64,000 nt of DNA from Diaphorobacter caeni (lineage in GTDB: Bacteria > Pseudomonadota > Gammaproteobacteria > Burkholderiales > Burkholderiaceae_C), in contig NZ_JADKYZ010000002.1 of assembly GCF_015354245.1 (NCBI RefSeq), positions 744,001 to 808,000 of the forward strand. Reading direction: 5' to 3'. The notes under the pieces are model-generated. The model was not told where the DNA came from and searched no databases. It worked only from the letters and a program-made list of their open reading frames with translations. Shown piece by piece: positions 13,676 to 47,054 of this stretch. Position 1 is the stretch's first letter, and each line of letters starts with the position of its first letter. A program made the translations under genes and the position numbers.

Positions 13676-13690
13676 CTGGCCAGCCGAGCG

Positions 13691-13730
13691 ATCCGCAGCG
13701 CGTGAGAATTGACTCTCCGGCGCTGCGGAT
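13691..13730 (+). terminator. inverted repeat after the siderophore receptor
   Basis: ATCCGCAGCGC (13691-13701) and GCGCTGCGGAT (13720-13730) form a perfect 11-bp stem 16 bp after the receptor stop codon. The T-run after it is weak, so it may be an mRNA-stabilising hairpin as much as a terminator. Confidence 0.55.
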
Positions 13731-13768
13731 TGGTTCAGGTCTTGCATGACACAGATCAGTGACCATCG

Positions 13769-13794
13769 ATGCCGGGCCCCTGCCCGGCATTTGT
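13769..13794 (+). terminator. second hairpin after the siderophore receptor
   Basis: ATGCCGGGC-CCCT-GCCCGGCAT is a perfect 9-bp stem with a four-base loop, followed by TTGTGCTTG. It is a plausible Rho-independent terminator or attenuator between the receptor and the hydroxylase gene. Confidence 0.6.
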
Positions 13795-13849
13795 GCTTGT
13801 ATTTATCGGGTATTCATCGATTTCCGAACTTGAACAGGGAATCCAGATC

Positions 13850-14533
13850 ATGTTGATCACCATCGACAAGGTCCTGACCAAAGAGCAGGTCCTTCAATTC
13901 CGCCAGCAGCTCGACCACGCCGACTGGAGTGACGGCGCCGCCACCGCAGGCACGCTGGCCAAGAGCGTCAAGCGCAACCAGCAGCTCGACGACAACGGCG
14001 AGCTCTGCATCGCGCTCGGCAACCAGATCGTGCGCACGCTCTCGCAGACGCCGCTGTTCATCTCGGCCGCGCTGCCGCGCACCATCTATCCGCCCAAATT
14101 CAACCGCTATGCCGACGGCGGCACCTACGGCGCGCATGTGGACAGCGCGCTCATGTTCCTGCCCGGCAGCAGCCAGCAGATGCGCACCGACCTGTCGGCC
14201 ACGCTGTTTCTGGCCGAGCCCGACGAATACGACGGCGGCGAACTCGAGGTCGAAGGCCCGTTCGGCGTGCAATGCGTGAAGCTCGAAGCGGGCGACATGG
14301 TGCTCTATCCATCGAGCAGCCTGCACCGCGTCACGCCCGTCACGCGCGGCGCACGCGTGGCCTCGTTCTTCTGGATCGAGAGCCTCGTGGCCAACGAGAC
14401 CGAGCGCACGCTGCTGTTCGATCTGGACCAGTCCGTGCAGCACATGGCCCCTTCCTTCGCCCCCGACGACCAGCGCCTCGTGCAGCTCACCGGCGTCTAT
14501 CACAACCTGTTGCGACGCTGGGCCAAAACCTGA
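13850..14533 (+). CDS. PKHD-type Fe(II)/2-oxoglutarate hydroxylase (PiuC/YbiX family)
   Basis: This is a 227-aa Fe(II)- and 2-oxoglutarate-dependent dioxygenase of the PiuC/YbiX family, usually encoded beside TonB-dependent siderophore receptors and induced by iron limitation. The double-stranded beta-helix metal ligands are His96 and Asp98 ([10 protein letters not shown]) and His159 ([10 protein letters not shown]), with Arg169 as the likely 2-oxoglutarate anchor. I chose the ATG at 13850 ([10 protein letters not shown]), which matches the family start, although the frame is open upstream through the terminator hairpin. Its physiological substrate is not established. Confidence 0.93.
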
Positions 14534-14588
14534 CATCCACTGGATCGCAGAACGTTTTAAGATCCGTTTCCCTCTAGGAGTGCACCTC

Positions 14589-14861
14589 ATGAAAACCATC
14601 AAAACTGTCTTGTGCGCCGCCATCCTGACCATCGGAACAGGCAGCGCCTTCGCTCACGGCAACGTGACCTGCAAGGAATATCCCAAGAACGAATGGCGCC
14701 CGCACACCGAGCTGCAGCAGAAGCTCGAGAAGGAAGGCTGGGTCATCCGCCGCATGGAAAAGACCGCCACCTGCTACGAGGTCTACGCCAAGGACCCCAA
14801 GGGAAAGCGCATCGAAGCGTTCTTTGATCCCAAGACCTTCGAACGCGTTGAAGAAGAATAA
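14589..14861 (+). CDS. secreted PepSY-domain protein
   Basis: This is a small exported protein of 90 aa: a cleavable signal peptide (to about SAFAHG, residue 23) and one PepSY-like domain (about 30-88) with KLEKEGWVIRRMEK and CYEVYAKDPKGKRIEAFFDP. Two cysteines in the mature part (VTCKEY and TCYEV) may form a disulfide. AGGAG lies eight bases before the ATG. Its end overlaps the cytochrome b gene, and PepSY plus cytochrome b pairs recur near iron-uptake genes, where they may reduce ferric iron; that role is inferred. Confidence 0.85.
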   Translation: MKTIKTVLCAAILTIGTGSAFAHGNVTCKEYPKNEWRPHTELQQKLEKEGWVIRRMEKTATCYEVYAKDPKGKRIEAFFDPKTFERVEEE

Positions 14862-15423
14862 TCCGCTTGCTGAAAGCCAGACCGCGCCGCTGAAGGTGCG
14901 CGTCTGGGACTGGCCCGTGCGTTTGCTGCACTGGGGTCTGGTGGTCTGCATCGCGCTGTCCTGGTGGAGCCGCGAAGACCTCGGACCCTTGCACGAGCGC
15001 ACGGGCTATGTCGTCATCGGCATCCTGGCGGCACGCCTGCTGTGGGGTTTCGTGGGCACGCATTACGCGCGCTTCGCGCAGTTCGTGCGCGCACCCCGGG
15101 CCACCATCGCCTACGCGCGCGCCGCGCTCAAGGGCAAGGCGCCGCGCTACATAGGCCACAACCCGCTGGGCGGCTGGATGGTGGTGGCGCTGCTCGCCTG
15201 CCTGAGCCTGCTCACCTTCACGGGCTGGCTCTACACCACGGACATGTTCTGGGGCTACGGCTGGCTTGCCGAGCTGCACAAGTATCTGGCCTGGACCCTG
15301 CTCGGCCTCGTCGCCCTGCACATCGCCGGCATGCTCTGGACCTGCTGGGAGCACCGCGAAAATCTGGTGCGCGCGATGTTCACCGGAAAAAAAGCCACGC
15401 CATCCGCAGACGACGTGGCTTGA
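14848..15423 (+). CDS. cytochrome b561/b6-type diheme membrane protein
   Basis: This is an integral membrane cytochrome b of about 190 aa with four helices. Haem-ligand histidines are recognisable in WPVRLLHWGLV, TGYVVIGILAARLLWGFVG (in the conserved helix-two context, followed by THYARF), AELHKYLAWTLLG and LVALHIAGMLW. It would pass electrons through the inner membrane, perhaps with the PepSY protein. The start is uncertain: in-frame TTG codons occur at 14824 and 14848, both overlapping the PepSY gene, and no ATG is available. I use 14848, close to the hydrophilic N-terminus of relatives. Confidence 0.85.
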   Translation: MKKNNPLAESQTAPLKVRVWDWPVRLLHWGLVVCIALSWWSREDLGPLHERTGYVVIGILAARLLWGFVGTHYARFAQFVRAPRATIAYARAALKGKAPRYIGHNPLGGWMVVALLACLSLLTFTGWLYTTDMFWGYGWLAELHKYLAWTLLGLVALHIAGMLWTCWEHRENLVRAMFTGKKATPSADDVA

Positions 15424-15460
15424 TCGTTAGCAACGCTCAAGACTGGCGCGTCCCAAGCGA

Positions 15461-15563
15461 GTGACAGCCGAGCAAGGGCCGCTCCGCAGCGCCGGCCGTG
15501 TCCCCCTCCGCTGCGCAACGCGCAGCATCAGAGAGGGGGAAGGCGCGAAGCGACTCAGGGGGT
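15461..15563. repeat. dispersed hairpin element at the 3' end of the lytic transglycosylase gene (copy 1)
   Basis: The core is a two-tier hairpin: CCCCCTC (15502-15508) with GAGGGGG (15533-15539), enclosing GCTGCGC-AAC-GCGCAGC (15510-15526). It is followed by GAAGGCGCGAAGCGACTCAGGGGG. A second copy at 61769-61861 has the same flanks and the same AAC loop but different, still complementary, inner-stem bases. Both copies end about ten bases past a minus-strand stop codon, which suggests a transcription terminator or 3'-end-stabilising repeat. Confidence 0.75.
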
Positions 15564-15572
15564 GCCAGCCGT

Positions 15573-17555
15573 TTACGGCAGGTCTTTGTTCGGCTCGGGT
15601 TCCGCCGCGTTGCGCGGCCCCACTGTCCCCAATCGCGACTTGATCGACTGCGGCTGTCCCGTGAGGATGGCCGCATAGTTGGTCGTGTTCGCCAGCACGT
15701 TCTTCACGTAGGTGCGGGTCTCGGTGAACGGCACGTTCTCGGCCCAGATCGCCGCGTCGATCACCGGACCGTTGCGCCAGTTGCGCGGGCGACCGGGCCC
15801 GGCGTTGTAGGCGGCGGCGGCCAGCGCCATCGAGCCGTCGAAATCATCGAGCGCGAGCTTGAGATACGCGGTGCCGATGGTGATGTTGGTCTCGCGGTCA
15901 TAGATCATGTCGGGCGTGAAGTCGGTCATGCCGATCTTGCGGGCCGTCCACTTGGCGGTCGCAGGCATCACCTGCATGAGGCCCGAGGCCCCCACATGCG
16001 AGCGCGCGTCCATGATGAAGCGGCTTTCCTGACGGATCAGGCCATAGACATAGGCGGGATCAAGGCCGATGCCCTTCGAATGGTCCACCACCGAGCTGCG
16101 GAACGGCATCGGAAAGCGCTGCGTCGCGTCAATGAACGACTTGGTGCGCTCGCTGGTGTTGATGCAGCGGTCCCAGATCTCCTGCTTGCAGGCCAAGTCG
16201 GCAGCGGCCAGCAGCTCGCGGTCATTCAGGCCGCCGGGGTTGTGCAGATTGGTCGCGTAGTTCCATTCGCGCACACCCTCGCTGCGCAGACCGAGCAAGA
16301 TGGCATAGAGCCCGCGGTTGAGCCCCGGATTGGCGCGCGCGCCTGCGATCTCTTCGGGCGTGAGCGGCGAAGGTGCCGGTGGTGTGGTCAGCTTCTGGCC
16401 GAGTTCCTCGCGCGCCAGCTGCTCGTAGAAGCTGCTGGTGCCCGCGATCGACTCGAACAGACGCTTGGCATTGGCCTTGTCCTCGTCACCAGGACGGTTC
16501 GACAAATAGGCGCGGCCACGCCAGTACACCCAGGTGGGATCGGTGCGGCCCATCGCGCTCATCGCGTCGATGCTGCGCGAGACGACCTTCCACTGCCCGG
16601 CACGCATCGCGGCGCGCACGCGCCAGCCCAGCATGTCGTCGTTCAGGTCGGCGTCCCGCGTCACATTGTTGAAATAGCCCAGCGCATCGGGCGACAGCGA
16701 GTTGGCCGCCTGCTTGCCGATCAGCCCCCAGAGCCAGTTGCGCTCCTCGGCCGAGAGCTGCACGCCCCATTTGTTGTCGAGCATGTTCGCGGCCTGCGCC
16801 GGATCGCTCATGGCCATGCGGATCAACGCCAGCACGATGAATTCCTGCTTCATCTTGCCGCGCGCCGTGGCCCGGCCCGTCAGGTATTTCGTGGGCGAGT
16901 CGATGGCCTCGCGCAGACCGCCCGCCGCCTCGGGAGCGACAATCTGCACGGCCTTGGCCACCGCGCGCAGACGATTGGCCTCGGCCGCGAGCCGCGCCTT
17001 GCGCCAGACGTCGTTGGCCTTGATCTTCTTGTTGGCGTACAGCTCGGACGCCGCATAGGCGCAGCCGTCATCCAGCTCACGCTGTCCGTACCAGTTGCGA
17101 AGAATCAGCTCCGCGCCCTCTTCGGTCGCCTTGCCGAGCATCTGGTCAACATTGAGGGCGTAGCACTGCACCTCCTTGTCGTCGCGCATGCGGAACTTGA
17201 AGTGCATGTCCATGAACCGCTCCCAGTCGCGACGCTGACCCAGCAGCAGCAGCCAGTCGTTGCGCAGGCGGTCTTCCTGATAGCTGCCCGCGTAGCGTTG
17301 CAGGAAAGCATCAACCTCGTCCTGCGTCGCCTCCTCGATCCGCGCCTTGAGTTCCCAGTACGCAGCCCACGGCTCGAGCACGTGTCCACGCGCGCCGGGC
17401 AACAGTGCGGTGAGTTTTTGCTTGTCCTTCTGCCTGAACGCTTTTTGCATTTCAAGCAGCACATCATCGCCTCGGGTTTGTGCCGAAACGGGAGCAACCG
17501 TACTTGCCAGACTAGCTCCGAGCAGTAACGGTGTCAGAATCTTGAGCCATTGCAT
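15573..17555 (-). CDS. slt: soluble lytic murein transglycosylase
   Basis: This periplasmic enzyme cleaves the MurNAc-GlcNAc bond of peptidoglycan with 1,6-anhydro product formation. The 660-aa protein has a signal peptide (MQWLKILTPLLLGASL, cleavage near VSAQ) and a long alpha-helical superhelix. Its C-terminal GH23 domain has the catalytic Glu in LIRQESRFIM, then GASGLMQVMPATAKW and AAAYNAGPGRPRNW. I chose the ATG at 17555 because it puts the signal peptide at the N-terminus. That leaves only about 14 bp to the divergent cyclo-ligase start. Confidence 0.93.
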   Translation of the reverse strand: MQWLKILTPLLLGASLASTVAPVSAQTRGDDVLLEMQKAFRQKDKQKLTALLPGARGHVLEPWAAYWELKARIEEATQDEVDAFLQRYAGSYQEDRLRNDWLLLLGQRRDWERFMDMHFKFRMRDDKEVQCYALNVDQMLGKATEEGAELILRNWYGQRELDDGCAYAASELYANKKIKANDVWRKARLAAEANRLRAVAKAVQIVAPEAAGGLREAIDSPTKYLTGRATARGKMKQEFIVLALIRMAMSDPAQAANMLDNKWGVQLSAEERNWLWGLIGKQAANSLSPDALGYFNNVTRDADLNDDMLGWRVRAAMRAGQWKVVSRSIDAMSAMGRTDPTWVYWRGRAYLSNRPGDEDKANAKRLFESIAGTSSFYEQLAREELGQKLTTPPAPSPLTPEEIAGARANPGLNRGLYAILLGLRSEGVREWNYATNLHNPGGLNDRELLAAADLACKQEIWDRCINTSERTKSFIDATQRFPMPFRSSVVDHSKGIGLDPAYVYGLIRQESRFIMDARSHVGASGLMQVMPATAKWTARKIGMTDFTPDMIYDRETNITIGTAYLKLALDDFDGSMALAAAAYNAGPGRPRNWRNGPVIDAAIWAENVPFTETRTYVKNVLANTTNYAAILTGQPQSIKSRLGTVGPRNAAEPEPNKDLP

Positions 17556-34724: not shown

Positions 34725-35951
34725 TCAGCGGCTGGTCTTCATCCCCTGCGCCGCCGCCCAGGCGCTGATGTCGTCGCGCCGGATCGCCGCCGCCATGAGC
34801 TGCGGGAAGGCGTCCGGCGTGCAGGCGAACGACGGCACGCCAAGCGCGGCGAGCTTGCTCGCGAGCTGGGCGTCGTAAGCCGGAGCACCCTCGTCGCTGA
34901 GCGCGAGCAGCGTGATGAACTGCACGCCCGATTCCACGAGCTCATGCGCACGGCGCAGCAGACCCGCCTCGACGCCGCCTTCATAGAGGTCGGAGATCAG
35001 CACCAGAATCGTGTTGCGCGGCTCGCGGATCAGGCTCTGGCAGTAGCCGACGGCACCGTTGATGTCGGTGCCCCCGCCGAGCTGCACGCCGAACAGCACG
35101 TCGACCGGATCATCGAGCTTCTCGGTCATGTCGACCACGGCGGTGTCAAACACCACCATCTTCGTGTCGACCGCAGGCAGGCTCGCCATCACCGCGCCGA
35201 AGATGCTGGAGTAGACGACCGAGTTCGCCATCGAGCCGCTCTGGTCGATGCACAGCACCACCTCGCGCTGCGGCTTGCGGGCCTTGCGGCCGTAGCCGAT
35301 CAGCGTCTCGGGCACGATGGTGCGGTAGTCGGGCTGCCAGTGGCGCAGGTTGGCGCGGATGGTGCGGTTCCAGTCGATCTCGGCATGCCTCGGCCGGCGG
35401 TTGCGCTGGCTGCGGTCGAGCGCGCCGCTGATCGCGCCGCGCATCGGCTCCTCGAGCTTGCGCATGAGTTCATCGACCACCTTCTGCACCACGGCGCGCG
35501 CCGTGGCCTTGGTGCTCTGCGGGATCACGCTGGACAGCGAAATCAGATCGGCCACCAGATGCACGTCGGCCTGCACGCTCTCCAGCATCTCGGGCTGCAG
35601 CATGAGCTGGCGCAGGTTGAGCCGCTCCATCGCATCACGCTGCATGACCTGCACGACCGAGCTTGGGAAATAGCGGCGGATGTCGCCCAGCCAGCGGCTG
35701 ACGTTGGGCGACGAATTGCCGAGGCCGCCGCGACGCGGACCGTCCTCGCGCTTGTGCTGTTCGTAGAGCGCCGCAAGCGCCTGATCGACATCGCCGATGC
35801 CACCGGACAGCGCGCCGCAGCTCGCGTCCGCGGGCTCGCCGAGCACGAGCCGCCAGCGCTGCAGCCGGTCGGTGGGCGGCAGGTCTTCGAGCGTGGTGAC
35901 GGGCGCTGCCGCAGCGGCGTTTGCGTTCGGGGTGTTCTTGGTACGTGCCAT
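34725..35951 (-). CDS. VWA-domain protein of the MoxR/DUF5682 cluster
   Basis: This 408-aa protein has an N-terminal helical region (about 1-225) and a C-terminal von Willebrand A domain (about 228-400). The MIDAS motif VVLCIDQSGSMANSV (DxSxS, residues 236-240) is intact, with MVVFDTAVVDMTE and LVLISDLYEGG supplying the later metal-site residues. VWA proteins are the standard partners of MoxR ATPases (RavA-ViaA, NorQ-NorD, CbbQ-CbbO), binding both the ATPase and the client. It is the last gene of the seven-gene operon, 20 bp after the DUF5682 gene. No signal peptide is seen, so it is cytosolic. Confidence 0.9.
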   Translation of the reverse strand: MARTKNTPNANAAAAAPVTTLEDLPPTDRLQRWRLVLGEPADASCGALSGGIGDVDQALAALYEQHKREDGPRRGGLGNSSPNVSRWLGDIRRYFPSSVVQVMQRDAMERLNLRQLMLQPEMLESVQADVHLVADLISLSSVIPQSTKATARAVVQKVVDELMRKLEEPMRGAISGALDRSQRNRRPRHAEIDWNRTIRANLRHWQPDYRTIVPETLIGYGRKARKPQREVVLCIDQSGSMANSVVYSSIFGAVMASLPAVDTKMVVFDTAVVDMTEKLDDPVDVLFGVQLGGGTDINGAVGYCQSLIREPRNTILVLISDLYEGGVEAGLLRRAHELVESGVQFITLLALSDEGAPAYDAQLASKLAALGVPSFACTPDAFPQLMAAAIRRDDISAWAAAQGMKTSR

Positions 35952-35971
35952 GTTGATTTTTCCTCAGGCTC

Positions 35972-38407
35972 TCAGGTCTGGATTGGAGCCAGGCCCCAGA
36001 GCGTGCGCAGCGCGGGCAGCACCAGCGCCGCGCGTTCCGCATCGAGATCGTCCGCCGTTGCGGCCCCGTGGGATGGCGTCGCCTGCGCGCCGTGCTTTGG
36101 CCCACGCACCGCGCGCGAGCCGAGCTGCTGGCGCTCGGCGCGGCTGAATTCCGCAAAGCTGCGGCGCACCAAAGGCAGCACCTGGATGAACTGCGCTTCG
36201 CCAAGCTGCGCAAGCCAGGCGTCGACCGCACCCCAGATCGCATCGTCGTGCAGCAGCACCAGCGCCTGGCCGTTGAGAAAACCATCGAGCCACGCGGCGG
36301 CGTCGACCGGCACGACGCCGAGCGACAGGTTGTGCGCGAACTGCAGGCCGATCTTTTCCTCGTCCCAGATCTTCGCATCGAGCAGCAGCCGCGTCGCCAT
36401 GCCGCGCAGCAGCGCCGCGCAGGTGTCGGCCTCGGCCATCACCACCAGCGCGCGGTGCCACGCGGTGGTGGTCTCCTCGGCATCGCGCAGGCGGATCGCC
36501 TCGTCGGCCTGCAGCGCGAGCGTCTTCACGCCGCGCGCGGCCTCTTCATCGAGCGACAGACAGGCGTTCGGCAGACCGATGGCCGCGCGCAGCACGAGCT
36601 GATCGATCACGCCCGCCAGCAGCTTGCTGTCGGTCTGGCGCACGCTGCCGTAGCGGTAGACGTTGGCGAGCGCGGGCAAGGCGCGCAGCAGTTGCTGCAC
36701 ATCGCCGGTGATGGCCGCGCGCGCAGAGACCTCGTTCATCAGCCGCTCCACCAGCTGCGGCAGCTGTGCGAGCAGCGCATCGTCGATGGCCTCGGCGATC
36801 TCGGGCAGCGCGGTCTGAGGAGTGAGCGACTGCAGCACGCGCTTGACGGCGGCGGTCTCGACGGTCGATCCGAAGCGGCTCGCCTCGATGAGTTTGACCA
36901 CGAGTTCGGGCCGCCATTGCAGATCCCAGCTCTCGCGGAAGGTGCCGCGATTGCGCTGCTGGTCCGACGCGCGGCGCCCCCAGTGAAGGTCCAGCAGCCG
37001 CAGGCGATGCAGCAAATGGCTGCGCGCCAGATCGGTGTCCTTGCGCAGGTCGAGCGCAACGATCTTCGAGCCCGCCTCGGGCTTGAGCCGCAGCGTTTTC
37101 TGCTGTTGCTCCAGATCGCGCTGCAGCGGCACCAGCGGCACATCGGCAGGCACGCTGCCAAGCACATCGCCCACCACCAGCGCATCATGGATCAGCTTGA
37201 GCGGAGCGGACTCGCCCATGCAGACCACCGTGCGCACGGCCTCGTGCAGCTCGGGCAGGCCGGGCTCGGTCTGACCGCGCAGCGCCGCCAGACCCTCGGC
37301 CAAACGGGTGGCCTCGATGATGTGCGCGCTCGAACAGTCGAGGTCATGGTTGCGCAGCAGTTGCGCCACGCGCGAGAGCCAGCCTGCCGCGCGGCTCGGC
37401 TGGATGAAGCGCGGCGATGGCTCTGCGGCGGCGTTGTGGTCGGCGGCCGCATCGGTGCGCCACAGGTGCGCATACCAGCCCGGCGCATCCACGCCCGCGC
37501 CATAGCCGCTGCCACTCGCGAGATTGCGGTGCGTCCACGGTGCCCATGTCGCCTGCACCTTGATTTTCGGGAGACCCTTGAGCGTGGCGGCATCGGCCTT
37601 GGCCGTCATCTTCGTCGTCGATATCGCCTTCAGCGCGGGCACATGCCATGCGCCGCAGATCACCGCGATGCGCTGATGCCCGGCCTTCTGCGCCTCGCGC
37701 ATGGTCTGGCGCATCGTGGCCTCGCGGCGCTCCTCGCGCAGCGCGTAGGCCTCGCCGCGCAAGGTGTTGGGCAGCTCTTCGCGCAGCGCCGTCATCGCCT
37801 CGGCCACCGCGTCGAACACCGCGCCGTCGCCCCCGCGTTCCTCGACCAGTCGATTCCACCAGGTCTCGCCGTCGGCGTAACCCGCCGCCTCCGCGAGCGC
37901 ATCGAGCGGGTCGCGTGCAAAGCGCTGGTCGGGATGCGGCTTTTCGAGTTCGCGTTCGGCCTCGACAGCGCTGTCGGCATCCGCCGCTTCGGGCTCCTCG
38001 GAAGCATCCGATGCTGGCTCGCTCTCCGCCTGCTTCGCCAGTTCCTCTGCCTTGCGCTCTCGCGCCTCCTCGGCCTCCTTGTCGAGCGCCATTTCGGTGG
38101 CCTGCGGCAGGTCCATGAATCGCACCGGCACGCCATGCTTCACGGCCCATTGCAGGGCCACCCATTCGGGCGAAAACTCGGCGAGCGGAAAAAACGACGC
38201 GCGGCTCGGCTCGTCCTGGCCATAGACCAGCATGGCGACCGGCGGGCGCAGTTCCTCGTTGGCGACGGCCGGCAGCAGCGCCTCGCACTCGGCCGGGCCT
38301 TCGATCAGCACGGCGTCGGGCTGCAGGGCCTCCAGCGCCTTGAGCAGGCTGCGCGCGCTGCCCGGCCCGTGGTGGCGAATGCCAAAGAAGTGCAATGCTG
38401 AATCCAT
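35972..38407 (-). CDS. DUF5682 protein with TraB/TIKI-like motifs
   Basis: This 811-aa cytosolic protein's N-terminal part shows FGIRHHGPGSARSL (8-21), DAVLIEGP (31-38) and, after a charged insert (about 108-155), REATMRQTMREA followed by VICGAWHVPAL (His255). The order G-x-x-H, E-G, R-x-x-M and G-x-x-H-v-p resembles the TraB/TIKI/Gumn superfamily of putative metal-dependent hydrolases or proteases. That link is my inference from motifs. The long C-terminal region (about 280-811) is helical and Leu/Ala-rich, repeat-like. It follows the TPR-like gene by 46 bp. Confidence 0.85.
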   Translation of the reverse strand: MDSALHFFGIRHHGPGSARSLLKALEALQPDAVLIEGPAECEALLPAVANEELRPPVAMLVYGQDEPSRASFFPLAEFSPEWVALQWAVKHGVPVRFMDLPQATEMALDKEAEEARERKAEELAKQAESEPASDASEEPEAADADSAVEAERELEKPHPDQRFARDPLDALAEAAGYADGETWWNRLVEERGGDGAVFDAVAEAMTALREELPNTLRGEAYALREERREATMRQTMREAQKAGHQRIAVICGAWHVPALKAISTTKMTAKADAATLKGLPKIKVQATWAPWTHRNLASGSGYGAGVDAPGWYAHLWRTDAAADHNAAAEPSPRFIQPSRAAGWLSRVAQLLRNHDLDCSSAHIIEATRLAEGLAALRGQTEPGLPELHEAVRTVVCMGESAPLKLIHDALVVGDVLGSVPADVPLVPLQRDLEQQQKTLRLKPEAGSKIVALDLRKDTDLARSHLLHRLRLLDLHWGRRASDQQRNRGTFRESWDLQWRPELVVKLIEASRFGSTVETAAVKRVLQSLTPQTALPEIAEAIDDALLAQLPQLVERLMNEVSARAAITGDVQQLLRALPALANVYRYGSVRQTDSKLLAGVIDQLVLRAAIGLPNACLSLDEEAARGVKTLALQADEAIRLRDAEETTTAWHRALVVMAEADTCAALLRGMATRLLLDAKIWDEEKIGLQFAHNLSLGVVPVDAAAWLDGFLNGQALVLLHDDAIWGAVDAWLAQLGEAQFIQVLPLVRRSFAEFSRAERQQLGSRAVRGPKHGAQATPSHGAATADDLDAERAALVLPALRTLWGLAPIQT

Positions 38408-38453
38408 GTTTCCCGTTCTTCTTCAATTCATCCAATGACCGATGGGCGACAGA

Positions 38454-40778
38454 TCAGAGCCCGTAACGCTCTTCCATCGCCTCGTGCCGCTCGGTCGATT
38501 CGCCCGCGTCGCGCGCCAGATCGCTCCAGCACAGCGTCATGCCCTTGGTGAGCGCCGCAAGCTTCGCGGAGATCACGCGCGGCGGCACATCGGCCGGTGC
38601 CGTCACCGCCAGATAGATGCCGGGCAGGCCGGCGTCTTCGTCACCATCCTCGTCGTCTTCGTCCGACTGGTCATCGTCATCGGAATCGACCACGCGGTAG
38701 CTGTCGCTGCTGTACTGCCATGTGCTCCAGCCCTCTTCCTCCAGCGCATCGCGGATCGCGCGGATCTGCTCCTCGCCGGGATGCAAGCCGTCGACCATGT
38801 AGCTCGGGCCATGGCCACCCTTTTCCAGCACATGCAGCGGTTCGCTGTAGATGCGGATGTAGTGCTCCTGCTCTTCCTCGTCTTCCGGCGGCTGCTCGGC
38901 GAGGCTGGGCACGAACACCACCCAGTCGTTCATGCCCTGATCCATTCCGCGCTGCGCGGGCTGAACGATGCGCGCCGTGGCCGGTCCGGTGCGGCGTGCC
39001 ATCACGTCACGCGTGCGGCCGTCCTCTTCATGGCGCAGATAGATCAGGCCCCAGTCCTCCTCCAACGGCGCGTCTTCGGAATCGACGGGGTCGAGCTCCA
39101 TGTCAAGAGCGATGGCCTGCCTGCGCACCTCGGCCCATTGCTGCGCGGCGCTCGCGGCGATCAGCAGGTCCCAGCGCTGGCGCACTTCGGGGTGCTCTTC
39201 GCTCTCCAGCACGATGCGGCGCTGCTCGACCGCCGTGTCGAAATCCTTGAGTTCCATCGCCGCATCGGCCCACAGCCCGCGTGTGGCGACGGCAGCGGGG
39301 TCGTGCGCAATCACCTGCTCGACCAGCGGACCGACCTGAGCAAAACGCGACTCGCGGAAAGCCACGCGGGCCCGGTACCAGGCCGCCTGCGCGGGCAGCG
39401 TGGCCGCGATGCGCGCGGCCTGCTCCTCGACCGCCGCGTGGTCCTCGGCCTTCATGCACACGCCGAACCAGCGGTTCTGCAGCGCGATCGAGTCCGGTGC
39501 CGCCTCCACCATGGCACGCAGCCTGGTGCGCGCCAGATCATGGCAGCCAAAGTTGGAGAGCGCCGTGGCCAGCGTCGTCACCACATCCTCGTCCTGCGGC
39601 AGCGCGCGGTGCGCCTGCTCCAGCCACTGGATCACCGCCTCGTTGTCGAGCCCGCTCGCCGCATCGGAATTCAGCCATTCGACCAGCTCCTCGGGCGGAC
39701 ATGGCGCGGCGATGCCGCCCGCGTTCGCCAATGCATCGCTCGCGGTGTCGAGCTTGGCGGCTGCGCCGAGGTCCAGGCGCAGCATCGGCAAATGTTCGCG
39801 TGCGCGGGCCATCGCGCCTTCCGCAAGCCAGGGCACTTGGCGCGCGAGCGACAGTTCGACCTGCGCGAGCGTCAGGTCGATCAGCACGCGGTGATTGCCC
39901 ACGGTGTGCAGGTGCTCGATGGTGCTCCAGATCGCGTGGCCGAGCGAGGCGGTGTTGAAGTCCGGCTGAACGCGCGCAATCGCCAACGCGGCGCGGCACC
40001 ACATCAAGTAGTCCTCAAGCTCGATGTCGTCGAAGTCGGGCAGCAGCTCGATGGCCGCCGCCGCATCGCCCGCCATCGCCAGCGCACGCGTGCGCAGGAA
40101 CAGTCGCGTCGCCTGTTCGCGGCGGTCGTCGTCATCCGAGTCCTCCTCGGACTCTTCGAGCAGCTTGAGCGCGGTCTGCGGCTCGCCGAGCGCGAGCCAC
40201 TGATCGACCTCGGTGCTCACGAACAGCGTGGTCACCTCCTCGCCCGCACGGCGCTGCTCGTCGCGCTGGCGCTTCAGATAAAGCACCGCTTCACGTGGCT
40301 GGCCCTGGTCATGCAGCGCATTGGCGCGCTCGATGCTGATGCAGCCAAAACACGACCAACTCGGGTCGATGCGCGCCAGCGTCTCGTCGCAGGCCGCAAG
40401 GCGTTCTTCGGACCATCCTGGCCCGTCCACGTTGGCGTAGGTGGCCACCAGATCCTGCGTGATGCACACGCTCTGCGGGCAGGCGTGGGTGCGCTCCTGG
40501 TGCGCGCTTTCGTACGATGCGACCACCTCGCCGAGCTGCGTCTCGCCATGGTGGCGTGCAATGCGCGAGGCGTTGAGCCAGTGCTTGAAATAGATGTCGA
40601 GCCACGGAATCTCAAGGCTGCGCGCGGCCGCCAGCGCCTCGGGCACCAGCGCCTCCACGAGCGCATGGTTGCCGCGATACTGCTGATACGGCACGTCGTG
40701 GATGAGATAGGCAAGGCGCTGCTGCCCCTGCTCTTCCAGCTGTTCGGCAAGGTCGTTGACCCAGGCAAAACTGTCCAT
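38454..40778 (-). CDS. large TPR-like repeat protein with acidic linker
   Basis: This 774-aa cytosolic protein has about 560 N-terminal residues of helix-rich repeats reminiscent of tetratricopeptide repeats (ERANALHDQGQPREAVLYLK, ALANAGG, EDVVTTLATALSNFGCHDLA, ATRGLWADAAMELKDFDTAV). The C-terminal domain starts near EDWGLIYLRHEEDGR and contains an acidic run of Asp/Glu (about residues 695-715), then IYLAVTAPADVPPRV. GGAG precedes the ATG at 40778. It lies directly after the HSP90 gene. TPR proteins are classical HSP90 co-chaperones, so a physical partnership is a reasonable guess, not evidence. Confidence 0.8.
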   Translation of the reverse strand: MDSFAWVNDLAEQLEEQGQQRLAYLIHDVPYQQYRGNHALVEALVPEALAAARSLEIPWLDIYFKHWLNASRIARHHGETQLGEVVASYESAHQERTHACPQSVCITQDLVATYANVDGPGWSEERLAACDETLARIDPSWSCFGCISIERANALHDQGQPREAVLYLKRQRDEQRRAGEEVTTLFVSTEVDQWLALGEPQTALKLLEESEEDSDDDDRREQATRLFLRTRALAMAGDAAAAIELLPDFDDIELEDYLMWCRAALAIARVQPDFNTASLGHAIWSTIEHLHTVGNHRVLIDLTLAQVELSLARQVPWLAEGAMARAREHLPMLRLDLGAAAKLDTASDALANAGGIAAPCPPEELVEWLNSDAASGLDNEAVIQWLEQAHRALPQDEDVVTTLATALSNFGCHDLARTRLRAMVEAAPDSIALQNRWFGVCMKAEDHAAVEEQAARIAATLPAQAAWYRARVAFRESRFAQVGPLVEQVIAHDPAAVATRGLWADAAMELKDFDTAVEQRRIVLESEEHPEVRQRWDLLIAASAAQQWAEVRRQAIALDMELDPVDSEDAPLEEDWGLIYLRHEEDGRTRDVMARRTGPATARIVQPAQRGMDQGMNDWVVFVPSLAEQPPEDEEEQEHYIRIYSEPLHVLEKGGHGPSYMVDGLHPGEEQIRAIRDALEEEGWSTWQYSSDSYRVVDSDDDDQSDEDDEDGDEDAGLPGIYLAVTAPADVPPRVISAKLAALTKGMTLCWSDLARDAGESTERHEAMEERYGL

Positions 40779-40809
40779 GTGGCTTGCTCCTGAAATTGGC
40801 TTGTGGGGT

Positions 40810-42675
40810 TCAGTTCCGAGTCGTCGGCGCGCACAGCGCCGCCACCGCTCCATTGAAGTCATTGAGCAGATCAACGAGCGGCGGCTGGCCTTCAAGCTCC
40901 TCGCCGCCAGGCGCCATGATGACCTTGAAGCTGCGCAGCAGCGCCACCGCGTGCGCGGGCACGGCGCGACCCTCTCGATGGCTCTGCAGCAGCGCTTGAA
41001 TCGCGGGATTGTCGAGATTGATGTAGAGCCGCGCGGACACGCTCGCGTCGATGCGCTTGGTGAACGCGCGCGCCAGACTCAGCGCCGCGCCCGCCATGCG
41101 CTTGCTCGCATCATCGGCCTCGAGCCGCGCCTTGAGCTGGGCCTCGCGGTCGGGCACGGCGATCAGCGGCAGCTCGGGCGAGACGAAGCGCGCGGGCACC
41201 ACCAGCTCGCCCCAGGCCAGTTGCGTGCGCAGCCAGGCGATCTCGCTCTCGGGCAGATCGGCCGCGCGGAACATGCGCGCATTGCCCGTGGCCGTGCCGA
41301 TCTCGACCAGCAGCACGCCACGGTCGCGCACGTACTCGCGCAGAAATCCCGCCACAGCGTAGCGATCACCACGCGCAACCGGCACCTGCAGCGCGCGGAA
41401 CAGCACGTCCTCGAAGCCACCGCTCTGCCCCAGACTCAGGTGAATGCGCCCGTCGCGAACGAGGCTGCGCACCGGAAGGTCGCCCTGGCTCGTGGAAATG
41501 CGCACGGCGTCCTGGAGCATCGCGAACAGTTCATCCTCGCAAAGCGCCGCGCCGAGCAGCGCCTCGTTGTGGCGCGTGAGCAGTCGGCTCCATGCGGGCG
41601 CCTGCTCCTGGGCGAGGCTCGCGAGGCCCTTGATCAGCGCGCTTTTGAGATGCGCGCGCACCGCCGTATAGGCATCGTCGCGCTGCAGATCCTCACGGCT
41701 CGCGGTGGGCGTGAGCGCGTTCGATTCGATCACGCCGCCGATGAAACCGGCCCACACGGGAATCAGGTCGCGCGCCTCGTCGTCCAGCAGCATGCCGCGC
41801 ACGTAGACGCTCAGATGCCGGTTGTCGCTCGTGCCGTAGGTCGCTCCGTCCTGCACCCACAGGAGGCCGCGCGCATCGCTGTCGCCCTCGGGCTCGATGG
41901 GGATCACGCAGATCGGCTCGAAGTGGCGCTCCATGCGCGTCGCGAACGCCATGCGCTGGCGCTGCAGCACGGCGGGATGAACGACCACGCCGTCCTGCGT
42001 GGCGCGCCACGGCGGCGGATCGGCGTTGACGCATTCATCGTCGAACCACAGCGGCTCGCGCAGCAGCGCGCAGTAGCGCCCCAGCACTTTCTTGAGCACG
42101 CCGCCCGAGCACAGATGGTTGAAGTCGTTGCGCATCGCCAGATGGATCTCGGTACCTACCGGCCGCGCGGGAATCGGCTGCACCGCATAGCGCCTGCCGT
42201 CCGTTGAAAGATAGCGCCAGCCCTCGCCCGTCGACTGGTACGAGGTGGTGTTCACCAGCACCTGCTCGGCCACGACGAAGGCCGAGAGAAAGCCGAGGCC
42301 GAACAGCCCGATCAGTTCCTCGCTGCCCTCCTGTCCCGTCGCGCGCAGCTGGCGGGTGTAGCCATTGCCCAGCGTCGCGAGAAATCTGTGCAGCTCCTGT
42401 TCAGTGAGGCCCGAGCCGTTGTCGCGGATGATGAGAGTCTGCGCGGCATCGTCGGCGATCACGTCGATGCGGCCGGGCTCGGTGAAGCCCGGATCCTCGA
42501 GCCTGCGACGCGAGATCGAGTCGTGCGCATTCTGGATCAGCTCGCGGATCGCGACGACCGGCGTCGAATACAAGTGTTTGGCGAGCACGTCGAACAGCCC
42601 GTCCAGATGCACCTGCGTGGTCTGCAGGGCCGGTGCCGTTCCATCGTCGAAGTCGTTGCTGCTGTTTTCGGTCAT
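40810..42675 (-). CDS. HSP90-family ATPase (HtpG paralogue of the MoxR cluster)
   Basis: This 621-aa HSP90-type protein's N-terminal GHKL ATPase domain has IRELIQNAHDSISRR with the Mg-binding Asn49, RDNGSGLTEQE (ATP-binding Asp85) and GLFGLGFLSAF in the lid/G2 box. The middle domain has the ASREDLQRDD arginine loop (compare SRE-LQ of HtpG) that contacts ATP phosphate. The C-terminal dimerisation region is divergent. Compared with canonical HtpG, many conserved middle-domain residues differ, so this looks like a specialised paralogue. It sits 29 bp after the MoxR gene. The ATG at 42675 is chosen from MTENSSNDF. Confidence 0.92.
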   Translation of the reverse strand: MTENSSNDFDDGTAPALQTTQVHLDGLFDVLAKHLYSTPVVAIRELIQNAHDSISRRRLEDPGFTEPGRIDVIADDAAQTLIIRDNGSGLTEQELHRFLATLGNGYTRQLRATGQEGSEELIGLFGLGFLSAFVVAEQVLVNTTSYQSTGEGWRYLSTDGRRYAVQPIPARPVGTEIHLAMRNDFNHLCSGGVLKKVLGRYCALLREPLWFDDECVNADPPPWRATQDGVVVHPAVLQRQRMAFATRMERHFEPICVIPIEPEGDSDARGLLWVQDGATYGTSDNRHLSVYVRGMLLDDEARDLIPVWAGFIGGVIESNALTPTASREDLQRDDAYTAVRAHLKSALIKGLASLAQEQAPAWSRLLTRHNEALLGAALCEDELFAMLQDAVRISTSQGDLPVRSLVRDGRIHLSLGQSGGFEDVLFRALQVPVARGDRYAVAGFLREYVRDRGVLLVEIGTATGNARMFRAADLPESEIAWLRTQLAWGELVVPARFVSPELPLIAVPDREAQLKARLEADDASKRMAGAALSLARAFTKRIDASVSARLYINLDNPAIQALLQSHREGRAVPAHAVALLRSFKVIMAPGGEELEGQPPLVDLLNDFNGAVAALCAPTTRN

Positions 42676-42704
42676 GCGGTGGTCGTCTTCTGTCCAATGG
42701 CGTC

Positions 42705-43787
42705 TCAGAGCTGCTCGCGGCAGGCGCGGTACAGGTCCTTCCAGTCCGAGCGCTCCTTCACCACGGTCTCGAGGTATTCCTTCCACACCACCGTGTCCTG
42801 CACCGGATCCTTGATGACCGCGCCGAGCAGGCCCGAGGCCACGTCCGCCGCGCGCAGCACGCCGTCGCCGAAGTGCCCGGCCAGCGCCATGCCGCTGTTG
42901 ATCACGGAGATCGCCTCGGCCGTGGACAGCGTGGACGTGGGCGACTTGATGCGCACGCTCTTGCCGTCTTCGGTCTGGCCGTTGCGCAGCTCACGGAAGA
43001 TCTGCACCACGCGCTTGATTTCCTCCAGCGCCGGAGGCTCGGCCGGCAGCGCAAGCGCGCGGCCCATCTCGCCGACGCGCTTCATCACGATCTGCACCTC
43101 GTCCGCTTCGCTGGCCGGCACCGGCAGCACCACGGTGTTGAAGCGGCGCTTGAGCGCGCTCGACAGCTCGTTGACGCCCTTGTCGCGGTTGTTGGCCGTG
43201 GCGATCACCGAGAAGCCCTGCACCGCCTGCACCTCGCTCTCCAGCTCGGGCACCGGCAGCGTCTTTTCGGAGAGCACGGTGATCAGCGTGTCCTGCACAT
43301 CGGCGGGAATGCGCGTGAGTTCCTCGATGCGCGCGATCTTGCCGCGCTTCATCGCGTTGACCATCGGGCTCGGAATCAGCGCCTTCTCCGACGGGCCGTG
43401 CGCGAGCAGCTGGGCGTAGTTCCAGCCGTAGCGCAACTGCTCCTCGCTGGTGCCCGCCGTGCCCTGCACGAGCAGCGTGGAATCACCGCTCACGGCGGCG
43501 GCCAGATGCTCCGACACCCACGACTTCGCCGTGCCCGGCACGCCGTACAGCAGCAGCGCGCGGTCGGTCGCGAGCGTGGTCACCGCGATCTCCATGAGGC
43601 GCGCATTGCCGATGTACTTGGGCGAAATCTCCACCCCGTTCTTGAGCGTACCGCCCATCAGGTACTGCAGCACGGCCCAGGGCGAGAGCTTCCAGTTGGG
43701 CGGACGCGCGCGGTCATCGACCTGCGACAGCGCGTCCAGTTCGTGCGCGAATTGTTGCTCTGCATGTTGACGAAGAACCTGGCTCAT
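42705..43787 (-). CDS. MoxR-family AAA+ ATPase
   Basis: This 360-aa AAA+ ATPase carries Walker A YGVPGTAKSW (81-90), sensor 1 VIATANNRD (195-203) and the arginine-finger region SALKRRFNTVV (~210-220). The Walker B segment reads IARIEELTR (151-159): the usual Asp-Glu pair is Glu-Glu, an atypical substitution also unlike classical MoxR DE. It belongs to the MoxR branch that acts with VWA proteins as a metal-insertion or chaperone machine. It lies 38 bp after the DUF5691 gene in the seven-gene operon. The start ATG (MSQVLRQHAEQQ) has no long open extension that is conserved. Confidence 0.93.
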   Translation of the reverse strand: MSQVLRQHAEQQFAHELDALSQVDDRARPPNWKLSPWAVLQYLMGGTLKNGVEISPKYIGNARLMEIAVTTLATDRALLLYGVPGTAKSWVSEHLAAAVSGDSTLLVQGTAGTSEEQLRYGWNYAQLLAHGPSEKALIPSPMVNAMKRGKIARIEELTRIPADVQDTLITVLSEKTLPVPELESEVQAVQGFSVIATANNRDKGVNELSSALKRRFNTVVLPVPASEADEVQIVMKRVGEMGRALALPAEPPALEEIKRVVQIFRELRNGQTEDGKSVRIKSPTSTLSTAEAISVINSGMALAGHFGDGVLRAADVASGLLGAVIKDPVQDTVVWKEYLETVVKERSDWKDLYRACREQL

Positions 43788-43825
43788 GGTGTGAAGCTCT
43801 CTGTTGGCAAGAAGATTGAAAAAGA

Positions 43826-45469
43826 TCAGGATGACGCGGCCACGGCCACAGGCTCCGCGACCCGTGTCAGCGTCTGGCGGATGTCCGCGATGCGGTGCAC
43901 GTGCTGCCATGACTCGTCGACGTTTCCCTGCTCGGCGCCTGCGGCGCTGGCCTTGTCGATCACCGCCAGCAGCTCGGGCAGCGCCGCCGGATCGAGCCAC
44001 AGCGCGGCGCTTCCGAGCGCCTGCGACAGGTCGTGGCGCACGCTCCAGTTCGTGCTCGCGCCGTCCGCCGCCAGGGCATATTGCGACAGCGCCGAGACGA
44101 TCTGCGCGGACAGCTGCGGCGAGAGCTGCTCGCCGGGCTCCATCAGCTCGCCGATGCGGATCAGCACGACCACCAGCCTCGGCGCGGCCTTGACGCGGCT
44201 GCTCCAGTAGGCCTCGCGCTCGGGCAACGGCATGGCGGCCAGCAAGGAGTTCAGGCTCTGCAGCGCGAGGCGGCTTTCCTGCATCGAGGTCAACAGCCCC
44301 AGCCACTCCCGGCTGGGCGCGCGCGCCGCCGCTTCGAGCAGGCCGTCCCACAGCGAGCGCTTCCACTCGGTCTTGCCCGCCCACGCGAACAGCGCCTCGG
44401 GCATCATCCCGAGATGCGCGAGCCACCACGCGGGCGGCGTCATGCGCACGAGTTGGTAGAGCCACCAGGCGCGCTCGCCGCCCTTGAAGAAACCGCTGGG
44501 CTTGATGGCGATGCCGTCGCGCGGCCAGTCGGCGTTTTCCTTTTCGGGCGGCTCGATGGTCCATGTGTCCCCATCGCCATTAAGCTTGAGCAGCGGCATG
44601 ATCCACGCGACCACGCGCTGCGAATGCGCGCTGTCCGGCAGCGTCGACAGCAGTTCCGCCGCCAGCTGCTTGATCTCGCCGCTGCGGTCGGTCAGCAGGC
44701 GCTCAAGGAGCGGCTCGTCGTCCATCGACAGCTTCGCGCTCAGCACCTCCAGCATCGCCAGACGCTCCTTGGCGTTGAGCTCCTTGATCGCGGCCTCGAA
44801 GCGCTCGCGTGCCGCGCGTGGATCGCTGCCCCGCTCGCTGCGCAGCACGGCCACGCGCTGCTCGAAGCTGCCTTCGCTCCACAGCTGTTCGACATCGGCC
44901 TGCTGATCGGTGCCCACCGCGTACTTCCACGCGGGATTGAGCTGCGCCAGCCACAGGCCGCGCGCGCCCAGCACGCCAAGCAGATCCGCTCGCAGCGCCG
45001 AGTTGCGCGCGCCCGCGTCGAGCGCCGTCGGCAGCGTCTGCTGCGGCAGCCGCATCCCGGCGCGCGCAAGCACATGCCAGCTCTGGCGGATCAGGCTTTC
45101 AGGCCCGTCGCGCAAGGCGGCGTTGAGCGCGCGCATCACCGCCTCGTCGGTCGGCATCGGCTGCACGTCATCGGGCGCGGCGGACAGGGCCAGCGGCGGA
45201 TCGACGGCAGCCGGCACATGGCCCGCGCGCTGCCACAGGGCAGCCGCACCCGCCGCACGCAACAGCTTGATCGAGCCCGCGTGCGCATCACCTGCCGACG
45301 GCAGCGCGGCATTCGCGTCGCGCACCAGCGCCTGCAGCGCGATGGGCCACTGCGCATCATCGACCGCGTCCATTCGCTGCGTGCCGACCAGCGCCTGCTG
45401 CATCAGCCCCTGCCAAAGCGAAGAATTCATGGGCGCACCGCCCGTCAATCCACCCGTTGATCCGCTCAT
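43826..45469 (-). CDS. DUF5691 family protein
   Basis: This 547-aa protein of unknown function is all-helical by composition (Leu/Ala/Arg/Trp-rich) and HEAT-repeat-like, with no catalytic motif that I recognise. A conserved-looking block is AIKELNAKERLAMLEVLSAKLSMDDEPLLERLL, given here only as its position at about residues 255-290. GGGAGAGG precedes the ATG at 45469, which overlaps the SWIM stop codon (ATGA), so translation is coupled. A shorter start at 45430 is possible. DUF5691 is known mainly from neighbourhoods with SWIM, MoxR, DUF5682 and VWA genes. Confidence 0.85.
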   Translation of the reverse strand: MSGSTGGLTGGAPMNSSLWQGLMQQALVGTQRMDAVDDAQWPIALQALVRDANAALPSAGDAHAGSIKLLRAAGAAALWQRAGHVPAAVDPPLALSAAPDDVQPMPTDEAVMRALNAALRDGPESLIRQSWHVLARAGMRLPQQTLPTALDAGARNSALRADLLGVLGARGLWLAQLNPAWKYAVGTDQQADVEQLWSEGSFEQRVAVLRSERGSDPRAARERFEAAIKELNAKERLAMLEVLSAKLSMDDEPLLERLLTDRSGEIKQLAAELLSTLPDSAHSQRVVAWIMPLLKLNGDGDTWTIEPPEKENADWPRDGIAIKPSGFFKGGERAWWLYQLVRMTPPAWWLAHLGMMPEALFAWAGKTEWKRSLWDGLLEAAARAPSREWLGLLTSMQESRLALQSLNSLLAAMPLPEREAYWSSRVKAAPRLVVVLIRIGELMEPGEQLSPQLSAQIVSALSQYALAADGASTNWSVRHDLSQALGSAALWLDPAALPELLAVIDKASAAGAEQGNVDESWQHVHRIADIRQTLTRVAEPVAVAASS

Positions 45470-46869
45470 TGCACCTCTCCCGAAAGCGCCCAGATGAGCT
45501 GCGCCCCGTCGTCGCCCACCAAGCTCCACGCGCTGAGCAAGCGCCAGCGCTCATCGCTCCACTCGCCCATCGCCAGCACCGGATGTCCGCCGCTCGCCGC
45601 AAGCAGGCTCCACGCCTGTTCATCCGGCAGATCGAGCTGCAGCACGCGCTGCTCGCCGTCAGTGCCTTCGTGAGCGGCATCGGTCACCACCGCCTGCCAG
45701 CCAGCGCCCTCGGCGCGATGCAGATGCACGCCCTGCAGCATCAGCGGCTGCAGCGGCTGAAACGGATTGCCCGCAAGCCGCTCCGCCAGATCTCGCCAGC
45801 TCCGCTGCGCCTGGCTGTGCGCGAGCAACGACGGCGACGCGTCGCCCTGCTCGTCGAGCAGGCTGCTCGCATCTGCGGCGATGGCACGCATCGGCGCGCC
45901 GCCCGGATAGAAATGCAGACTCGCCGCGTAGCTGCGCCCCACCAGCCATGCGCGCTCATAGCCACGGCCGCCGTGCGCGTAGTCCTGCAGCAGCGCGATG
46001 CGCCGCGTCCGCTCGCCGAGCAGCCACATGCGCCGCTCCACGAGTCGGCCCTGCCCCTCGATCTGGCAGCCGCCCAGCACCCGCCAGGTGTCCGCCACGG
46101 CGGGCGAGGTGGCCAGCAGTTCGGCCTTGTCCTGATTGAAACCGAGCGCGCCCATCACATCGTCGAGCATCGCGGGCGGCAGCTGATCGCGGCGCGCCGC
46201 GGCGTCGAGCAGCAGCTGCCACTGACCCAGATGGCTGAGCAGCACGGCCGGCCAGTCGCCACGCGCGCTCGCCACGTCGTACAGCTGGGTGACGCGCGCG
46301 GCCATGCCGGGCGCCTGTGCATCCACCAGCCGCGCGGCCATGTTCCGCCACGCCTGATGGGTGCTTGCGTCGTCAAGCTGCTGCGAGGCCAGCCCTTGGC
46401 GCAGCATGTCCTGCATCCACAGCGAGAGTTCGGCCAGACCGCCGTCCACGCGGCTCCAGCGTTTGGCTTCACGCTTGGCGGAGGCCTCTGGGTCGGGCGG
46501 CGCGGCGGCCACTGCGGCGGCCTTGGCCTCCTTCTTCTCGGCGCGGTCACGGCGCGAGTCGAGCCATTCGCTGACCCAGAGCGGGCGCGTGTCGGAAGCA
46601 GCCACCTGCCCTGCCGTACGCAGGAGCAGCAGCGCCAGCCCATGCTTGCACGGGAACTTGCGGCTCGGGCAACTGCATTTGAACGAGGGACCGCTCAGAT
46701 CGACCTGCGTCTGATAGGGCTTGCTGCCGCTGCCCTGACACTCGCCCCAGACTGCCGCCTCATCGCTGCCGAGGGTCGGCCATTTGCCGGGAGACTTCAG
46801 GCCCTGCGCGGCCTTGGTTGAGGAAGCATCCGGGGACAGCCCCAAAACTTCTGCTTCGCTGGTTAGCAC
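45466..46869 (-). CDS. SWIM zinc-finger protein
   Basis: This 467-aa protein is probably the first gene of the cluster. The N-terminal SWIM finger is FKCSCPSRKFPCKHGLALLL (CxCx(n)CxH), which binds zinc and usually nucleic acid or protein. An Ala/Glu/Lys-rich linker follows (about residues 110-135), then a long region with LWMQDMLRQGLA and a C-terminus rich in Trp (SEWSDERWRLLSAWSLVGDDG). The start is GTG at 46869, with AGAAGG six bases upstream. A longer frame reaches 47046, but the added residues look non-coding. It would provide target recognition for the machine; this is inference. Confidence 0.88.
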   Translation of the reverse strand: MLTSEAEVLGLSPDASSTKAAQGLKSPGKWPTLGSDEAAVWGECQGSGSKPYQTQVDLSGPSFKCSCPSRKFPCKHGLALLLLRTAGQVAASDTRPLWVSEWLDSRRDRAEKKEAKAAAVAAAPPDPEASAKREAKRWSRVDGGLAELSLWMQDMLRQGLASQQLDDASTHQAWRNMAARLVDAQAPGMAARVTQLYDVASARGDWPAVLLSHLGQWQLLLDAAARRDQLPPAMLDDVMGALGFNQDKAELLATSPAVADTWRVLGGCQIEGQGRLVERRMWLLGERTRRIALLQDYAHGGRGYERAWLVGRSYAASLHFYPGGAPMRAIAADASSLLDEQGDASPSLLAHSQAQRSWRDLAERLAGNPFQPLQPLMLQGVHLHRAEGAGWQAVVTDAAHEGTDGEQRVLQLDLPDEQAWSLLAASGGHPVLAMGEWSDERWRLLSAWSLVGDDGAQLIWALSGEVQ

Positions 46870-47054
46870 GTGCTGCCTTCTCCATCCCGCCTGTGATAGC
46901 GAACAAGTATTAGTCTTGCCAGATTTATACCAAAGTCCCGATGTCAATCTGGCGAAGCCCTGCCGGGAGTTTGTGAACTTGTGCATCGGCGCCACATGGC
47001 GATTCAGGGTAGACGCCAGTAGCGGCCCCGTCGGCGCCGCAGACAATCTCCGCC

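Follow-up and report, generated by a model that had tools for sequence, protein, structure and literature searches.

The window analysed here, a 64,000-nucleotide stretch of the Diaphorobacter caeni genome, carries a compact block of seven minus-strand genes at 34725-46869, whose order, from open reading frames (ORFs) and Pfam matches, is SWIM, DUF5691, MoxR, HSP90, TPR, DUF5682, VWA. The operon is real and composite: as a set of seven, the genes are a variant specific to one lineage, whereas the core belongs to a conserved but unstudied kind. The genes are:

45466..46869, minus strand: SWIM zinc-finger protein, first gene; GTG start, with an upstream ATG at 46986 possible; Pfam SWIM 1.1e-05
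43826..45430, minus strand: DUF5691 protein; alternative ATG at 45469; Pfam DUF5691 1.7e-110
42705..43787, minus strand: MoxR-type AAA+ ATPase, YehL homologue; Pfam AAA_5 1.6e-37
40810..42675, minus strand: HSP90 paralogue, non-HtpG, part of the inserted module; Pfam HSP90 4.5e-10, HATPase_c_3 2.4e-08
38454..40778, minus strand: TPR protein with a conserved C-terminal region, HSP90 partner gene; Pfam TPR_19 6.8e-07
35972..38407, minus strand: DUF5682 protein, YehM homologue; Pfam DUF5682 4.5e-253
34725..35951, minus strand: VWA (CoxE-type) protein with an intact metal-ion-dependent adhesion site (MIDAS), YehP homologue, last gene; Pfam VWA_CoxE 1.3e-51

A preliminary description had listed seven minus-strand genes with gaps of 20-46 bp or overlaps; the ORF coordinates and Pfam matches agree with it, and all seven genes are intact. 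With the favoured starts, taken as those near the starts of homologues, the intergenic gaps are 35, 38, 29, 31, 46, and 20 bp; the alternative DUF5691 start, ATG 45469, would give a 4-bp overlap with the SWIM gene. The TPR_19 match scores 30 bits against a cut-off of 25. The VWA protein has 408 amino acids (aa), with its CoxE-type domain at 171-383 and no further Pfam domain. G+C content at third codon positions is similar in all seven genes (0.81-0.91), so that the HSP90 and TPR genes bear no mark of recent foreign DNA. All seven are under purifying selection within the genus, the ratio of non-synonymous to synonymous substitution rates being 0.03-0.32 (three genome pairs for the core, two for HSP90 and TPR). 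DUF5691 is the fastest-evolving of the seven: its identity to the counterpart in G005, a genome of the same genus, is 72%, versus 98% for MoxR.

DUF5682 was searched for in relatives, Pseudomonadota, Actinomycetota, Bacteroidota, and Cyanobacteriota, each count including the genome on which the search was centred. It was present in 11/100 relatives and 16/397 Pseudomonadota (genomes may recur between these two sets), 21/246 Actinomycetota, 7/198 Bacteroidota, and 8/146 Cyanobacteriota, one of the last under the cut-off. The resulting survey comprised 77 loci with one DUF5682 gene each—E. coli, 33 loci (L032-L064), 42 loci (L077-L118), and the window—after two sub-cut-off matches, a 230-base fragment, duplicate loci, and 18 plasmid records had been left out. 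Loci were annotated with profiles built for the analysis, and neighbours were counted within 12 kb of DUF5682. MoxR was found at 71/77 loci, VWA at 66/77, and SWIM at 47/77, and these three together with DUF5691 at 40/77. DUF5691 occurred at 43 loci and DUF4132 at 16, never both at one (0/77), and a profile comparison did not support DUF5691 being a diverged DUF4132 (hhalign probability 3%). Because they never occur together and share no profile homology, the two look like alternative parts. The SWIM-DUF5691-MoxR-DUF5682-VWA core is thus an uncharacterised operon, old and patchily distributed, that spans at least four phyla and has two subtypes: one bearing DUF5691, and one bearing DUF4132 that includes E. 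coli yehL/M/P/Q. Six actinobacterial loci (L094-L096, L098-L100) are divergent MoxR-DUF5682-VWA versions whose DUF5682 frames are much longer, at 1243-1645 aa. The literature covered, namely titles, abstract openings, and passages from a set with few subscription journals or preprints, held no description of the cluster, of DUF5682, or of the core gene combination; passages of PMC10910872, PMC8195603, and PMC7824862 likewise describe no such cluster.

In E. coli K-12, where the DUF5682 profile also matches (a search control), yehL (MoxR), yehM, yehP (VWA), and yehQ (SWIM) lie in a row after yehI (DUF4132) and yehK. As in the window, MoxR, DUF5682, VWA, and SWIM form one same-strand run, and for the first three the clustering goes with homology: the window proteins are 40% identical to YehL, 26% to YehM, and 36% to YehP. 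Unlike the window, E. coli has DUF4132 for DUF5691, the SWIM gene last rather than first, and no HSP90 or TPR gene, which in the window stand between MoxR and DUF5682. YehQ and the window SWIM protein gave no blastp match, nor was there a significant profile match to subtype-B SWIM proteins; the SWIM motif is present.

HSP90 and TPR accompany the core at 3/77 DUF5682 loci (the window, G003, and G005, all of one genus), and in these three the pair sits between MoxR and DUF5682. Within the window's genus the TPR gene occurs in 4/6 genomes; in the fragmented G004 a 3.4-kb contig carries it together with a piece of HSP90, and G002 has neither the core nor HSP90-TPR. Among 397 Pseudomonadota searched with identical settings, 16 genomes have DUF5682 and 5 have the TPR protein, and the window genome is the only one with both. 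Since the arrangement is confined to three loci of one genus and to this single genome among the 397, there is no widely conserved seven-part machine, and we rejected the seven-gene unit as a conserved whole. The preliminary description had envisaged one conserved machine, of which the core MoxR-VWA cluster stands and the widely conserved seven-part unit does not; the conserved co-occurrence of HSP90 and TPR with the core that a neighbourhood survey might have revealed was largely not found. Its view of HSP90 and TPR as the unusual addition to a SWIM/DUF5691/MoxR/DUF5682/VWA core was upheld by the 77-locus survey.

The HSP90 gene of L043 was considered as a second case of the arrangement and rejected, being an ordinary HtpG (30% identical to the window HSP90 over 339 aa, and in the HtpG clade). 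This locus, from another genus of the family, has that ordinary htpG (13609-15699) directly upstream of a SWIM-led operon. Elsewhere the MoxR-DUF5682 gap holds unrelated ORFs: DUF4241, a methyltransferase, and DUF6414 at L032, L036, and L063, the three loci scanned with Pfam, and further ORFs at L061 and L088. This gap may be a tolerant insertion site.

The HSP90 and TPR genes form a module of their own, which here sits as an insertion between MoxR and DUF5682. Few genomes have a full-length homologue of the TPR protein (5/397 Pseudomonadota including the window, and 3 plasmid-collection records), and the TPR gene directly follows HSP90 in X. vasicola, P. aeruginosa, three genomes of another genus, and G072. 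The HSP90s of these stand-alone pairs are 54-58% identical to the window HSP90, and no core gene lies near them in stretches of up to ~10 kb a side (in G193 the contig ends 1.3 kb upstream). The P. aeruginosa pair is adjacent and in the same order as in the window, with HSP90 54% and TPR 36% identical, but lies between unrelated genes, with no MoxR/VWA core in the fetched stretch. From the neighbouring liv and flg genes, we take it to be PA1068/PA1069. In the portions of the sources available, the gene for PA1069 seems to share an operon with an Hsp90 gene (PMC4053335), PA1069 is listed in a table of a section on BatR interaction (PMC13411936), and its fold change at elevated temperature is negative where that of htpG is positive (PMC4957987). 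Given these opposite responses, the pair is probably not a heat-shock chaperone. The "PA1068" of PMC9995270 is a strain name and not the gene. No relative of the HSP90 or TPR protein was confirmed in viral contigs, and a window-like HSP90 was found at E≤1e-44 in 1/249 cyanobacterial genomes, with no core protein within its 20 kb.

The window HSP90 was also considered as HtpG and rejected: in a tree of 33 proteins the HtpG clade (8 proteins) and the window clade stand apart with support of 1.000 each, above a deeper order that the tree does not settle, and the genome has its own htpG elsewhere (G000:C1:212098). Its score against NF010683 (270.8 bits, cut-off 455) makes it a relative rather than a member of that family. 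NF010683 (PRK14083) HSP90s, which are 23-26% identical to it, occur in 10/236 Actinomycetota genomes at 12 loci. Within the up to 20 kb taken around each locus, and at a threshold of E≤0.01, an open frame after the HSP90 gene had a TPR match at 12/12 loci, the weakest being 0.0048 at L131; at L135 about 1.2 kb, holding a further frame, separates HSP90 from the start of the TPR frame. In the control, 21 ORFs after 11 ordinary HtpG genes gave no TPR match. The NF010683 HSP90s thus resemble the window HSP90 in being non-HtpG with a downstream TPR match, and differ in that blastp gave no match between the TPR proteins of L131 and the window. Records of S. globosus and of Listeria show the HSP90-TPR pairing too, and on a Pseudanabaena plasmid the two lie one gene apart. 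That the preliminary description linked the HSP90 with a TPR partner was sensible.

One of the NF010683 loci, L131 7522-13775 (G703, Actinomycetota), has an AAA_5 MoxR-like gene, VWA_CoxE (2.3e-53), HSP90, and TPR in a close same-strand run. Nine of the 10 NF010683 genomes are among the 21 DUF5682-bearing Actinomycetota, with the genes on other contigs or ~100 kb or more apart; this co-occurrence probably reflects shared ancestry and is not evidence for a link. Two cyanobacterial HSP90s carry a C-terminal TIR domain: that of L153 (10371-13007) matches PF10137 CAP12/Pycsar at 1.8e-05, just over the cut-off, and that of L069 (9929-12562) matches PF10137 at 0.001, under it. Trypsin-like and protein kinase genes lie upstream of HSP90 at L153.

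The intact MIDAS, Walker A, GHKL, and SWIM motifs noted in the preliminary description recur in alignments of relatives. In the VWA family the MIDAS D, S, S, and later D are kept in 66/66 members and the T in 62/66. Walker A is intact in 72/72 MoxR family members, and Walker B reads E-E rather than the usual D-E in 71/72, including the window protein (42705-43787), which has AAA_5-type Walker A, Walker B (as E-E), sensor 1, and arginine finger. Among solved structures its best match is midasin (1.2e-14), with NorQ at 2e-05. The GHKL ATPase residues and the middle-domain arginine are present in the window HSP90; the set E45, N49, D85, G87, G89, G123, G126, G128, and R327 is complete in 25/25 non-HtpG HSP90s. 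The SWIM CxC...CxH is invariant across 6 aligned rows.

In DUF5682, two H, an E, and a GxxH are invariant in 77/77 proteins, and the first G is kept in 64/77. The motif set of its N-terminal part, HH...E...GxxH / GxxH...E...GxxH, has what we take to be the TraB/EreA/ChaN motif order, and E. coli YbaP shows the same order by eye. Pfam TraB matched two of six DUF5682 N-terminal parts, at 0.0038 and 0.2, both under the cut-off. The invariant motifs suggest a hydrolase role for DUF5682, so far as sequence can indicate one. An AlphaFold2 model of DUF5682, of moderate quality (predicted local distance difference test, pLDDT, 68.7; predicted template modelling score, pTM, 0.45), is alpha/beta in its N-terminal part and helical towards the C-terminus. 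The SWIM protein model, likewise of moderate quality (pLDDT 66.8, pTM 0.47), had no Foldseek match at E≤0.001.

RavA-ViaA, NorQ-NorD, and CbbQ-CbbO are known MoxR-VWA pairs. They share with the window a MoxR AAA+ protein and a VWA partner, whereas the window family has the E-E Walker B and the extra DUF5682, SWIM, and DUF5691 genes. In NorQD, according to the available part of PMC13036017, the MoxR-VWA pair remodels a linked target, a finger of the VWA protein entering the AAA+ pore and force being transmitted to a linker. A second comparison is with the MoxR-vWA ternary conflict systems, which an excerpt of Kaur et al. 2020 (PMC7159879) presents as combining variable effectors with a VMAP, iSTAND, FtsH, or beta-propeller partner; that text mentions neither SWIM nor HSP90. 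Here the likeness is MoxR and vWA with a constant third gene; the difference is that the third gene of the window is DUF5682 and that its VWA protein has no variable effector. VMAP, iSTAND, FtsH, and beta-propeller domains were absent from the Pfam matches of the seven proteins, although Pfam models may not cover each of them, and a bpMoxR match of 20.1 bits fell under the 27-bit cut-off.

We tentatively favour a composite operon, in which an old MoxR/VWA client-remodelling core would act on DUF5682 and HSP90-TPR has been added in this genus. MoxR, as an AAA+ hexamer, would form with the CoxE-type VWA protein a motor acting on DUF5682, whose place as partner or client is suggested by its being the constant neighbour of MoxR-VWA. 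SWIM and DUF5691 (DUF4132 in the E. coli subtype) would be the recognition or adaptor part that chooses targets. The part of the HSP90 would be to hold some large client of the machine or help it mature, DUF5682 being the simplest candidate, and the TPR protein would be a co-chaperone dedicated to this HSP90. The data show the gene content and its conservation, the modular make-up, intact motifs, purifying selection, and the recurrence of HSP90-TPR pairs; beyond these, for this scheme we infer co-transcription, physical contacts among the products, the identity of the client, its enzymatic activity, and the order of action. Purifying selection on the genes in three species, together with the actinobacterial AAA(MoxR-like)-VWA_CoxE-HSP90-TPR run, argues that the insertion is not pure accident.

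Several observations weigh against this composite reading. The HSP90-TPR pair is attached to the core in a single genus, which means that the core does not need it, and G001, of the same genus, has the core with a short MoxR-DUF5682 junction and no HSP90-TPR. Within the core, MoxR is missing at 6/77 DUF5682 loci and VWA at 11/77; some of these are contig ends, and L109, L115, L117, and L118 have DUF5682 with neither. The link of DUF5682 to TraB is not significant (hhalign to YbaP, E 0.065), and DUF5682 had no fold match at E≤0.001 (Foldseek, with the moderate-quality model). As for the pairing, no window-like HSP90 gene lies within about 10 kb of a TPR homologue in Nonomuraea, and at L153, a cyanobacterial locus, the ORF that precedes HSP90 gave no TPR match. 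Only 4/12 of the actinobacterial TPR matches pass the Pfam curated cut-off (L134, L137, L138, L140), and in the tree the 12 loci amount to about five lineages. As a control, the HtpG set is weak: 5/11 genes come from the window's genus and only 3/21 ORFs match any Pfam family, so that many of the 21 may not be genes. An earlier set of 1.5-kb flanks (20 pieces, several on the wrong strand and with genes cut) gave no TPR match. The L131 run is 1/12 NF010683 loci, and its AAA and VWA proteins are only distantly similar to those of the window (AAA 28% over 207 aa, VWA 30% over 97 aa), so that this association probably, on sequence likeness, arose separately.

The same facts bear on whether HSP90-TPR is a passenger, inserted by chance and sharing no more than a transcript with the core, from which it would be functionally separate and serve other clients. 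Restriction to 3/77 loci in one genus, the stand-alone pairs of other taxa, whose fetched stretches hold no core gene, and the short junction of G001 all fit a passenger; the gene order kept under purifying selection in three species and the independent actinobacterial MoxR-VWA-HSP90-TPR cluster do not, and we consider this explanation somewhat unlikely. Another possibility is a conflict or defence system like the MoxR-vWA ternary ones, in which DUF5682 would be the effector and SWIM/DUF5691 the sensor. The patchiness of DUF5682 (11/100 relatives, 16/397 Pseudomonadota) speaks for it; MoxR-vWA pairs drive predicted conflict systems (PMC7159879, in the part available), and cyanobacterial relatives of the window HSP90 have a C-terminal TIR domain. 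We nevertheless judge it unlikely. PADLOC gave no known anti-phage system, only partial matches covering less than most of a protein and confined to short ATPase regions (HSP90 to TmtA, 6e-07 over about 110-130 residues; MoxR to IetA, 0.005). The window VWA protein has no effector domain, and the core proteins are conserved across phyla. A scan of five flanking ORFs placed four in Pfam families (fatty-acid hydroxylase/YhhN, D-serine dehydratase-like, MgtC, and PALP) and gave no match for the fifth; since the named families are metabolic or transport, the surroundings are unlike a defence island. For the defence role raised in the preliminary description, PADLOC and the flanking ORFs thus added no support to that of the patchy distribution. 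Less probable again is maturation of one metalloenzyme encoded elsewhere, by NorQD or CoxDE logic, with MoxR-VWA and the chaperones inserting its cofactor: the window VWA is CoxE-type and NorQD drives metal insertion (PMC13036017, available part); a weak argument against it is that the constant partner of this MoxR-VWA pair is DUF5682.

Beyond the composite operon itself, it is possible, if doubtful, that bacterial HSP90-TPR pairs apart from HtpG have been wired into MoxR-VWA systems in at least two lineages as a two-motor complex for protein remodelling, and that the cyanobacterial TIR-HSP90 branch may serve in defence. Bacterial HSP90 is reported to lack known helper proteins, and no bacterial TPR partner of HtpG appeared in the literature covered (titles, abstract openings, and passages of PMC7926864, with few subscription journals or preprints). 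For the unstudied yeh genes of E. coli, the core supplies a conserved setting and suggests roles that can be tested. The HSP90-TPR pairing is the part of the finding most worth following: TPR genes directly beside non-HtpG HSP90s in several phyla are candidates for the missing class of bacterial HSP90 helpers.

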